Shown here: piece after piece, positions 17,785-32,517 of the stretch | Layout: each line of letters opens with the position of its first letter | Numbering within the stretch: position 1 is the first letter of the stretch | NCBI GenBank assembly: GCA_001603805.1 | Contig: LUZY01000013.1 | Span: 722,723-786,722 of the forward strand | Source of the DNA: Deferribacterales bacterium Deferri_01 | GTDB lineage: Bacteria > Chrysiogenota > Deferribacteres > Deferribacterales > Geovibrionaceae | Length of the DNA stretch: 64,000 nucleotides | Reading direction: 5' to 3' | Made by a program: the position numbers and the translations under genes | Notes under the pieces: model-generated | Told to the model about the DNA's origin: nothing | The model's input: the letters and a program-made list of their open reading frames with translations, nothing else | The model's database searches: none

Positions 17785-18160
17785 ATAATTCAAAATTTTC
17801 CATCCCTGGAAATTTTGAATACACGCTCACGGGTGGATAAATCACCCTTCGCTACGCACGGCGCAACGTCTTATCTTGATAATTCAAAATTTTCCATCCT
17901 TGGAAATTTTGAATACACGCTCGCACCGCATAAATGCGGTTTCGCTACGCACGGCGCAACTCCATCCTTCGAGTTGTATAACCCCCAACTTCAAATACCT
18001 GCTATTCCTTGGAAATTTTGAATACACGCTCACGGGTGGATAAACCACCCTTCGCTACGCACGGCGCAACTCCATCCTTCGAGTTGTATAACCCCCAACT
18101 TCAAATGCCTGCTATTACTTGGAAATTTTGAATACACGCTCACTGGTGGATAAACCACCC
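17785..18160 (+). repeat. Structured tandem repeat array, locus 1 (four units)
   Basis: Four units each contain the linker ACACGCTCAC (ACACGCTCGC in unit 2) at 17821, 17915, 18024 and 18134, followed by a hairpin with a TAAA loop. Arms are GGGTGG/CCACCC in units 1, 3 and 4 (with one wobble or mismatch in units 1 and 4) and ACCGCA/TGCGGT in unit 2. After the hairpin comes TTCGCTACGCACGGCG at 17848, 17941 and 18051; unit 4 is truncated. Units 2 and 3 add a third hairpin CAACTC...GAGTTG (17957-17976, 18067-18086). An AT-rich palindrome (ATTCAAAATTTTCC/GGAAATTTTGAAT) precedes units 1 and 2; units 3 and 4 keep only its right half. The period is 110 bp between the last complete copies. The array lies between the 3' ends of convergent pyc and uvrC. 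Confidence 0.85.
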
Positions 18161-18179
18161 TTCGTTAATCAATCAGAAT

Positions 18180-19979
18180 TTACAAACTCTGCATGTAATC
18201 CGCAACACGGCGGCATATTTCGATTGGTATTCCTGTCTCAGCGTTTATTTCTTCTGCTGTTATCCCTTTTCGGGCATGAATATCCGGTATTGCCTCAAGA
18301 AGTTTTCGCAGACGCTTTTCGCCAAGCCCCTCAATGGTAAGCATCGGTGATTTAGTGAGGTTTTTCAGTGCAAGACTGCGGGAATACGTGATGGCAAACC
18401 TGTGTGCCTCATCCCTCATCTTCTGGACAAACATAAGCAGCGGATCATTCTTCTTAAGATTGACAGGGTTTTTGCGCCCGTATAAATGGATGGATTCAAT
18501 GGAATCCGCTCCATCATGCTTCATAAATTTTATGCTTCGACCCTTGGAAATGGAAATAAAGATAGAGTCTGAACCCGCTTCATCTGCCGCACGAACAGCG
18601 GAATTAAGCTGTCCTATGCCGCCGTCAATAATGTAGAGATCCGCTGCTTTTTCAGAACCTTCGGCAATATTTTCCATTTTTCTGCTGAAAAGCTCATAAA
18701 TTGACGTAAAATCATCATTCTCTGCGAATTTTATCTTATATTTTCTGTATTCGCCCTTGGTGAAGCTTCCATCTATGCTTGTCACGGCGACACCCACAGT
18801 GTGATTACCGCCCAGATGCGATATATCCACACACTCTATACGGCGTATATCTCTGTCAGTTTTGAGGAGATTTTTTAGCCTTTCGTTAACGTCCTTACGC
18901 CTGCCAAGCTGGCGGATGTATGTTTCGGTCTGTATGCGGGCATTTTCCAAAGCAGTTTCCTGAAGCTTTTTAAAACCTCTGGTGATGACAGTTTTCTTCT
19001 TTCCTGCCATCTTGCTCAGTGCTTCTGCCAGACGTGAGTTATCATCCAGTCCGAACGGAACAACCACATCAGGAAACTGGCGCACCTGACCGTAAAACTG
19101 CATGATGTAGGACTCAAGAACATTTTCTGTATCCTCATCCTCAAAGAAAACTGTCTCGCTTCCTATGAGTTTTCCGTTACGGATAAACTGCATGGTAATT
19201 CCAGGCAGATTCTCGAAAGTATGCGGAATAAACACATCCACTGCACGCTGTTCATCGGTGAAAACAACCGTCTGCCGATAAAACAGCTTCTCCATTGAAC
19301 GCAGCCTGTCCCTTATAAATGCTGCTTTTTCATACTCCATACGCTCTGAATAAACCGACATGTCGCTTTTCAGACGCTCCCGCACTCCGTCCGTATCGCC
19401 TTTGAAAAATGAGCGTATCTGCTCCACCATCTTCACGTATTCTTCTTCTGTGATAGTGCCTTCGCATGGACCCAGACATTTTTTTATCTGAAATTTCAGG
19501 CAGTGCTTTTTCTCTGAAAATTTACGGTCATTACAGGAACGGAGCGGAAAAACCCGCAAGATCTCTGACAAAATACCCCTCAGTTCGCTCACGTTCACAA
19601 AAGGTCCGAAGTATGAGGCATTTTCATCTGATGTGTTTCTGGTTACGGCAAGTTTGGGAAACCTCTCATCGGTTATTTTTATATAAGGATAGCTCTTAGA
19701 ATCTTTCAGGCGGATATTATACCGCGGCTGCTCCGTTTTGATAAAATTAGCTTCCAGAAGAAGGGCTTCCGCCTCGTTATCAGTAACCACAAAGCGCAGT
19801 GATACTGCCGCCTGAACCATGCGGATAACCTTAAGAGGTTTATCAGTATCAACAAAATACGAAGAAACACGGGAGCGGAGGTTCTTTGCCTTGCCCACGT
19901 AGAGTATTTCGCCTTTTTTGCCTAAAAAAAGGTAAACTCCGGGATTTTCGGGAATTTCATGCAGGGGATATTTGTCCAT
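18180..19979 (-). CDS. uvrC: UvrABC excinuclease subunit C
   Basis: The 599-residue nucleotide-excision-repair nuclease has an N-terminal GIY-YIG domain (GVYLFLGKKGEILYVGKAKNLRSRV, about 14-38), a UvrB-interacting UVR motif (about 200-235) and an RNase H-like C-terminal nuclease. The nuclease acidic residues lie in CVDISHLGG and YIIDGGIGQL. Tandem helix-hairpin-helix motifs close the protein (LTIEGLGEKRLRKLLEAI). It cuts on both sides of DNA lesions in the UvrB complex. No Shine-Dalgarno is evident before the ATG; a TATAAT lies only about 7 bp upstream, so a leaderless transcript is possible but unproven. Confidence 0.96.
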   Translation of the reverse strand: MDKYPLHEIPENPGVYLFLGKKGEILYVGKAKNLRSRVSSYFVDTDKPLKVIRMVQAAVSLRFVVTDNEAEALLLEANFIKTEQPRYNIRLKDSKSYPYIKITDERFPKLAVTRNTSDENASYFGPFVNVSELRGILSEILRVFPLRSCNDRKFSEKKHCLKFQIKKCLGPCEGTITEEEYVKMVEQIRSFFKGDTDGVRERLKSDMSVYSERMEYEKAAFIRDRLRSMEKLFYRQTVVFTDEQRAVDVFIPHTFENLPGITMQFIRNGKLIGSETVFFEDEDTENVLESYIMQFYGQVRQFPDVVVPFGLDDNSRLAEALSKMAGKKKTVITRGFKKLQETALENARIQTETYIRQLGRRKDVNERLKNLLKTDRDIRRIECVDISHLGGNHTVGVAVTSIDGSFTKGEYRKYKIKFAENDDFTSIYELFSRKMENIAEGSEKAADLYIIDGGIGQLNSAVRAADEAGSDSIFISISKGRSIKFMKHDGADSIESIHLYGRKNPVNLKKNDPLLMFVQKMRDEAHRFAITYSRSLALKNLTKSPMLTIEGLGEKRLRKLLEAIPDIHARKGITAEEINAETGIPIEICRRVADYMQSL

Positions 19980-31960: not shown

Positions 31961-32221
31961 CTATTTTTTCTCCCTTGAAGCAAGGAATTCCGCCACGGCA
32001 GAGGTTTCGGAAGAATTAATTTTAAGTCCGAACCCCTTCATCCTTTCCACGGTGGAAACCCACTTTTTTTGATCATAATCCTTTTTTAAAGCAAGCTCAA
32101 GACTGTGGCATCCGGCACATTTTGATATGAAAACCTTTTCACCGTCAGCGGCTTTTGCATTTACAGTTATCAATATACAGACAGAAACTACTACGATAAG
32201 AAAAATAATAAAAGATTTCAT
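31961..32221 (-). CDS. Small monohaem cytochrome c
   Basis: The 86-residue protein has an N-terminal hydrophobic segment (3-20; signal peptide or membrane anchor, with NAKAAD following). One haem motif CAGCH lies at about 35-39, and a methionine at ERMKG could be the sixth ligand. It is a probable periplasmic electron carrier or membrane-anchored cytochrome. AAGGAGG lies 7 nt before the ATG, and this SD region forms the edge of the repeat unit at 32228-32517. It is the first gene of the unit ending at the MFS gene. Confidence 0.85.
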   Translation of the reverse strand: MKSFIIFLIVVVSVCILITVNAKAADGEKVFISKCAGCHSLELALKKDYDQKKWVSTVERMKGFGLKINSSETSAVAEFLASREKK

Positions 32222-32227
32222 GATAAT

Positions 32228-32517
32228 GCCTCCTTAACTGATAGCAGTAATCTGCACGTCCTTGTCAGATTACTGCACACGCTCACGCCGTGGTAAACAC
32301 GGCTACGCTGCGCACGGCGTCGGCACTTCCTGTGCCTCCTTAACTGATAGCAGTAATCCGCACATCCTCATCAGATCTACTGCACACGCTCACGCCGTGG
32401 TAAACACGGCTACGCTGCGCACGGCGTCGGCACTTCCTGTGCCTCCTTAACTGATAGCAGTAATCCGCACATCCTTGTCAGATTACTGCACACGCTCACG
32501 CCGTGGTAAACACCACT
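32228..32517 (+). repeat. Structured tandem repeat array, locus 2 (three units)
   Basis: Units start at the hairpin arms 32244, 32350 and 32457 (period 106-107 bp). Each has an 11-bp hairpin GCAGTAATCTG/CAGATTACTGC (perfect in unit 1), then linker ACACGCTCAC (32277, 32384, 32490). Hairpin GCCGTG-gtaaa-CACGGC follows (32287-32303, 32394-32410), then TACGCTGCGCACGGCG and hairpin GGCAC-ttcct-GTGCC (32322-32336, 32429-32443). Unit 3 stops inside the middle hairpin, where GTGGT/ACCAC can still pair. Linkers and the TAAA loop match locus 1 although the arms are unrelated. Each unit also carries the complement of the SD context of the cytochrome gene (GCCTCCTTAACTGATAGC). Confidence 0.85.

Follow-up and report, generated by a model that had tools for sequence, protein, structure and literature searches.

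The two hairpin arrays of the window, by which we mean the whole 64,000-nt stretch of DNA from Deferribacterales bacterium Deferri_01 analysed here, are local copies of a dispersed intergenic element that is insertion-polymorphic, amplifies in tandem and has its hairpin structure under strong selection, a description that we regard as near certain. Taking strand, position and loop sequence into account, we consider it probable that this mobile or duplicating element supplies the untranslated regions of mRNAs with CsrA-type hairpins in pairs. We found no account of an element of this kind in the literature searched, and the results suggest a family of dispersed protein-binding RNA elements that is apparently undescribed so far.

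Architecture of the element and its arrays in the window

Read on the plus strand, which is the strand of the preliminary description, a unit of about 110 bp consists of an AT-rich left end (CTTATTTATAAT-like), a first hairpin (hp1), the linker ACACGCTCRC, a central hairpin (hp2), the linker TTCGCTRCGCACGGCG and a third hairpin (hp3). The stem of hp1 has about 11 pairs and a single unpaired base in its 5' arm, followed by 2–3 pairs and the loop; hp2 has 6–7 pairs with a TAAA-like loop, and hp3 has 6–8 pairs. The unpaired base of hp1 (column 28 of alignment A1) is present in 50/50 units without fixed identity and may soften the stem under the loop.

Array 1 (17788–18163, minus strand) carries four 5' linkers, at 17821, 17915, 18024 and 18134, and is preceded in mRNA direction by the stop codon of uvrC (18180–19979, minus strand). 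Its unit 1 starts with hp1 at 17788–17820 (mRNA loop C-AGGGAU-G, stem of 11 bp interrupted by one bulge), followed at 17821–17863 by linker ACACGCTCAC, hp2 GGGTGG/TCACCC and linker TTCGCTACGCACGGCG (plus-strand letters). In unit 2, hp1 (17882–17914, mRNA loop C-AAGGAU-G) is followed by the linkers with hp2 ACCGCA/TGCGGT (17915–17956) and by hp3 CAACTC-catccttc-GAGTTG (17957–17976), whose loop contains GGA and whose closing pair is changed. Unit 3 comprises the linkers, hp2 GGGTGG/CCACCC and hp3 at 18024–18086, with the 5' arm of hp1 rearranged, while unit 4 (18134–18163) is truncated after hp2 and adjoins the 3' end of uvrC. Array 2 (32244–32513, minus strand) holds two full units and a truncated one, with GCCGTG/CACGGC arms and TACGCTGCGCACGGCG. 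Here, hp1 of unit 1 (32244–32276, mRNA loop C-AAGGAC-G) lies just upstream of the Shine-Dalgarno sequence (SD) of a small gene on the minus strand (SD AAGGAGG at 32229–32235, ATG at 32219–32221) and is followed by linkers with hp2 GCCGTG/CACGGC (32277–32319) and by hp3 GGCAC-ttcct-GTGCC (32322–32336; mRNA loop AGGAA, C–G closing pair). Linkers, hp2 and hp3 of unit 2 occupy 32384–32443 and the truncated unit 3 occupies 32490–32513; all these features lie on the minus strand.

Both arrays thus exist where the preliminary description had placed them, including the third arm pair in array 2. Its statement that the linkers of array 1 are kept exactly holds for the four 5' linkers, whereas three units keep the 3' linker TTCGCTACGCACGGCG without change and unit 4 has it truncated to TTCGTTAATC. 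Likewise, ACCGCA/TGCGGT was found in unit 2 as given, whereas GGGTGG/CCACCC, attributed to most units, is exact in unit 3, since unit 1 has TCACCC with one G–T pair and unit 4 has TGGTGG/CCACCC with one mismatch. The 3' linker occurs exactly five times, compared to 0.38 occurrences in shuffles even with two mismatches allowed.

Distribution within and beyond the genus

A search for the linker pattern in the whole genome and in related genomes, which the preliminary description had suggested along with a covariance model, returned many more copies. Exact copies of the linker pair number 45 in the window's genome (G000, 2.85 Mb; reversed pattern 0) and 43 and 63 in two sister species, with none in 37 other genomes from the family and order. 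With the covariance model, at least 150 copies were found in the complete, single-contig sister genome G002, all scored candidates having E <= 2e-19. Copies occur singly or in tandem, with 2 to 6 units per array.

Elsewhere in the phylum, six genera gave additional, weaker matches to the model, mostly within two families. In these relatives the linkers drift, and at least one C-A(N)GGAX-G loop is present in 56 of the 61 aligned matches and two loops in 35, a count somewhat biased by the fact that the model itself scores the loop. Scanning a genome contig collection, from which the genus is apparently absent, for the linker pair yielded six hits, each standing alone in coding-like sequence and none accompanied by the repeat, and the pair had no match in viral contigs, phages or plasmids. 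Viral contigs also lacked matches to two patterns guessed for possible relatives from other phyla, and no Rfam family matched at threshold, the matches below threshold being unrelated.

Covariation of the hairpin arms

The arms are highly diverse, with 82, 40 and 68 different arm sequences for hp1, hp2 and hp3 among 119 distinct units as delimited by an automatic stem caller. Among the 50 units of alignment A1, two-sided changes were observed in 22 of the 24 pairs and in 382 cells compared to 117 in shuffles, and 91.5% of the paired cells can pair, a value that falls to 34–47% when the partner is slid. RNAalifold agrees with these pair-change counts, which bears out the original claim of selection on base pairing. 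A compensatory change is also visible at an orthologous locus, where hp3 reads TGCCCCC/GGGGGCA in the window's genome (L029) and CGCCCCC/GGGGGCG in both sisters (L156/L157), and where both hp2 arms differ (GCCGTG vs GGCAGG). Since identical hp2 arms are combined with many different hp1 arms, the parts evolve or recombine independently.

Orientation and position relative to genes

The element is strongly oriented with respect to its neighbours. The gene next to hp3 runs antisense to the plus-strand reading used above at 71 of 80 loci, and both flanking genes are antisense at 54 loci compared to both sense at 4. The transcribed strand, which we assigned from gene orientation at these 80 loci, is therefore the reverse complement of the strand originally described. 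In the other genera both genes are antisense in 16 cases and both sense in 6, with G003 and G023 as exceptions in which the element shows no sense bias. At many loci the element starts, in mRNA sense, at most about 13 nt after the preceding stop codon, or ends 9–20 nt before the next start codon.

Wobble pairs provide a modest strand signal: A–C, which corresponds to G–U in the mRNA, was found 37 times and G–T 20 times, with ratios of 20:9 in hp1 and 10:2 in hp2, hp3 by itself (7 to 9) lacking the signal. In G002, the sense strand of the element lies on one replichore strand in 59 of 77 clusters, compared to about 62% leading-strand coding, a bias weaker than that relative to genes. Folds of the mRNA strand are stable (z −2.9 to −3.9) and display the hp1 and hp3 loops together with a central hairpin around hp2. 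No T tract follows the stems, and no terminator-like site was found within array 1. Of the candidates initially put forward, a structured RNA fits best, given the strict orientation against transcription of the strand first described and the kept GGA loop on the mRNA strand, and we consider it likely that the element acts as RNA, on the mRNA strand.

The GGA loop and its probable relation to CsrA

In 138 units picked by their linkers alone and left unfiltered, the mRNA-strand loop C-A(N)GGAX-G was found in 117 copies of hp1 and 101 copies of hp3, compared to 1.4% in shuffled flanks. The failures in hp3 are mostly unit-to-unit joints without hp3 or loops with one letter changed; in alignment A1, whose choice of rows is biased, the loop is present in 49/50 and 46/50 units. 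The letters kept are C, A, GGA and the closing G, while X can be any base and N is present in about half. The preliminary description noted that the flanking hairpins differ in sequence at matching positions in the two arrays, but missed their common loop and the opposite transcribed strand.

This is the arrangement known from NMR spectroscopy of RsmE, which binds an A(N)GGAX loop with a C–G closing pair in which A and GGA are fixed, X is variable and N is variable or optional (PMC4005645). The element carries such a loop with C–G closing on a stem. For CsrA, SELEX yielded the consensus RUACARGGAUGU, a preference for short stems, and an optimal spacing of more than 18 nt for dimer bridging (PMC7652899). 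The two loops of a unit are separated by about 43 nt plus half stems, a distance compatible with bridging by a CsrA dimer. As a counterpoint, hp1 stems of 11 bp stand against the preference for short stems, although a conserved bulge lies 2–3 bp below the hp1 loop.

GGA is also prominent in DNA that was not selected for the element. It is the commonest of the 64 loop triplets in the window, G002, G003 and G042, and the second in G023, with 6 GGA-loop hairpins compared to a mean of 0.31 in the window, 11 compared to 0.71 in G002, and 23 compared to 0.81 in G003. No enrichment was observed in unselected DNA of G005, G017 or the csrA-less G020. In G042, from a distant family of the phylum, two near-identical stretches (L243:4573–4740 and L245:14076–14240, minus strand) each carry a pair of neighbouring GGA hairpins (CACTCACAGGAAGTGAGTG and CACTGCAGGGATGCAGTG or close variants) and may represent a repeat or an sRNA that binds CsrA.

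The csrA gene is present once per genome in the family and in all 22 genomes matched by the model. It lies directly downstream of fliW in the window's genome, and the encoded protein (MLVLSRK...VSVHRKEI) keeps LVLSRK and VSVHRKEI. Since csrA is also found in the element-free genomes G005 and G017, its presence discriminates only weakly. CsrA is nevertheless the best single explanation, as it predicts the fixed letters, the variable letters, the strand and the position, and from the sequence we predict that the loops of the element are probably bound by it.

Mobility and alternative explanations

Comparison of the genus's three element-bearing genomes revealed insertion polymorphism. Where two genes overlap, putatively ftsW and murG on our reading of the sequence, the site at their boundary is empty in the window's genome (L162) and occupied in both sisters (L068/L085), where the element is flanked by the 25-bp direct repeat TTTTTCTYACTCATGAGCCCGCCTC and both genes are left whole. 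A second site is empty in G000 and G002 (L160/L161) and holds a dimer with repeats of about 46–50 bp in G001 (L092). The element therefore displays the presence/absence polymorphism with target duplication by which mobile elements of MITE or SINE type are recognized. In many arrays the repeated unit is the element plus flank, which is what later amplification of an inserted copy together with its target duplication would produce.

The search for an autonomous partner covered the Y1 transposase and reverse transcriptase families. A reverse transcriptase (PF00078) was found in the window's genome (L107/L251, C3:114810–115451, an open frame of about 501 codons) and is without counterpart in the two sisters, G001 and G002; a reverse transcriptase or group II intron derivative was consequently rejected as mobiliser. 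Another idea, suggested by loci L061, L071 and L090, was that the 3' arm of hp3 derives from the host, having been copied or selected through pairing with the target. It was discarded, since the cleaner sites, L092/L160 and L153, show hp3 to be part of the element, and tandem copies may have left the other cases behind as remnants. Two further repeats of the genus were encountered along the way. A second, longer element family (L153:250–470, also in the left flank of L061) has the same GGA-loop end hairpins, another internal sequence (CTCACTCGCAG...CACTCCGCA) and a 41-bp direct repeat on its flanks, and a different dispersed repeat (GTCATTGCGAAC...GCAATCTC, also GTCATTCTGAGC...GAATCTC) often adjoins or interrupts arrays (L045, L063, L081, L089, L094, L156 and L158).

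These observations raise the question of whether the hairpins are read as DNA. Were they recognized as folded single-stranded or cruciform DNA by a transposase or integrase, with the CATCC loop as the enzyme's mark, the element would be a non-autonomous mobile DNA element whose orientation derives from target choice near stop codons or SDs. The insertion polymorphism with target duplications and the replichore bias in G002 are in line with this, and because the loop CATCCATGG is almost self-complementary, CATCC could have a reader at the DNA level. Integron attC sites, whose stems can vary under structural recognition, are a precedent for variable stems; inspection of the element linkers by eye, confined to these linkers, revealed no attC R/L box (GTTRRRY). 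However, orientation relative to genes (54 to 4) is stronger than that relative to the replication fork, the genus lacks a Y1 transposase in all three genomes, and the loop variation matches the CsrA rule in detail, with X free and N optional, so that we regard recognition as DNA as unlikely. The more specific candidates of the preliminary description, a REP/BIME element or a hairpin moved by a RAYT or IS200-like Y1 transposase, match the element in being short, intergenic, palindromic and of high copy number. The search for such a gene was run, and no match to PF01797 was found in G000, G001 or G002, the three element-bearing genomes of the genus; tandem units with long target duplications do not resemble what IS200/RAYT elements produce, and whereas REP sequences keep their stem and tag, the element does the reverse, holding its loops constant while its stems vary. 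With neither a Y1 transposase nor a shared reverse transcriptase, REP/RAYT is not supported and appears highly improbable.

Two unrelated satellite expansions would account for the near-identity of units within an array, local flank included, but are refuted by the same linkers being found at dozens of loci in three species, and we give them practically no weight. A structured mRNA element independent of CsrA, serving as 3'-end stabiliser, as separator of operon genes or, through an SD-like GGA in its loop, as ribosome standby or decoy site, would agree with the location between stop codon and SD, with the stable folds of the mRNA strand and with the resemblance of GGA to the SD. Stability alone, however, leaves the kept A, GGA and C–G closing pair with a variable X unexplained, and the lack of T tracts after the stems and of a terminator-like site in array 1 further speaks against this explanation, which we consider rather improbable.

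Proposed model

We propose a model in which a short intergenic element would insert near gene ends and starts, duplicating 25–50 bp of target, and the inserted copy would then be amplified in tandem along with its flank. The mRNA would gain two C-A(N)GGAX-G hairpins flanking a central hairpin (about 43 nt with linkers), located after the stop codon and/or just before the SD. One CsrA dimer would be expected to grip both loops of a unit, altering translation or decay of that mRNA, and the hundreds of copies would be expected to serve also as a distributed CsrA sink. The stems would be free to vary because the protein would recognize the loop with its GGA and whether a stem is there, not the letters of that stem.

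We tentatively suggest a self-spreading element with a cargo of paired, predicted CsrA-binding hairpins, dispersed, duplicated and diversified over several genera, which may set the level of free CsrA in place of a CsrB-type sRNA. If this is true, bacterial repeats whose stems change while their loops stay would be explained by how an already known RNA-binding protein reads its targets, and a mobile element would be able to rewire a global post-transcriptional network. The hundreds of paired GGA hairpins with differing stems form a natural library, useful for measuring CsrA specificity.

Comparison with known systems

Among DNA repeats, REP/BIME sequences with RAYT (GTAG- and CGTC-tagged repeats, PMC3733652) are likewise short, high-copy intergenic palindromes, at times in tandem. 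The element differs from them in having no Y1 gene, a constant loop on a variable stem, long target duplications and strict orientation relative to genes. MITE-like small repeats such as ERIC, Correia and RUP share the intergenic location, the non-coding nature and the target duplication; the duplication is, however, 25–50 bp rather than a few bp long here, terminal inverted repeats were not seen, and amplification occurs in tandem with the flank.

Among RNAs, the CsrA sponges CsrB/CsrC and RsmX/Y/Z similarly display several A(N)GGAX hairpins that are closed by C–G and whose stems are free to vary. They are encoded by one or few dedicated sRNA genes, whereas the element is scattered in more than 100 copies over mRNA untranslated regions; in further contrast to CsrB and RsmZ, it has fixed linkers and a central non-GGA hairpin, inserts and amplifies, and is without Rfam match. 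CsrA sites in mRNA leaders, as in hcnA of P. fluorescens and glgC of E. coli, resemble the element in the GGA hairpin near the SD and in two sites at a spacing that a dimer can bridge. Those leader sites arose singly, whereas here one repeated element brings sites to many genes.
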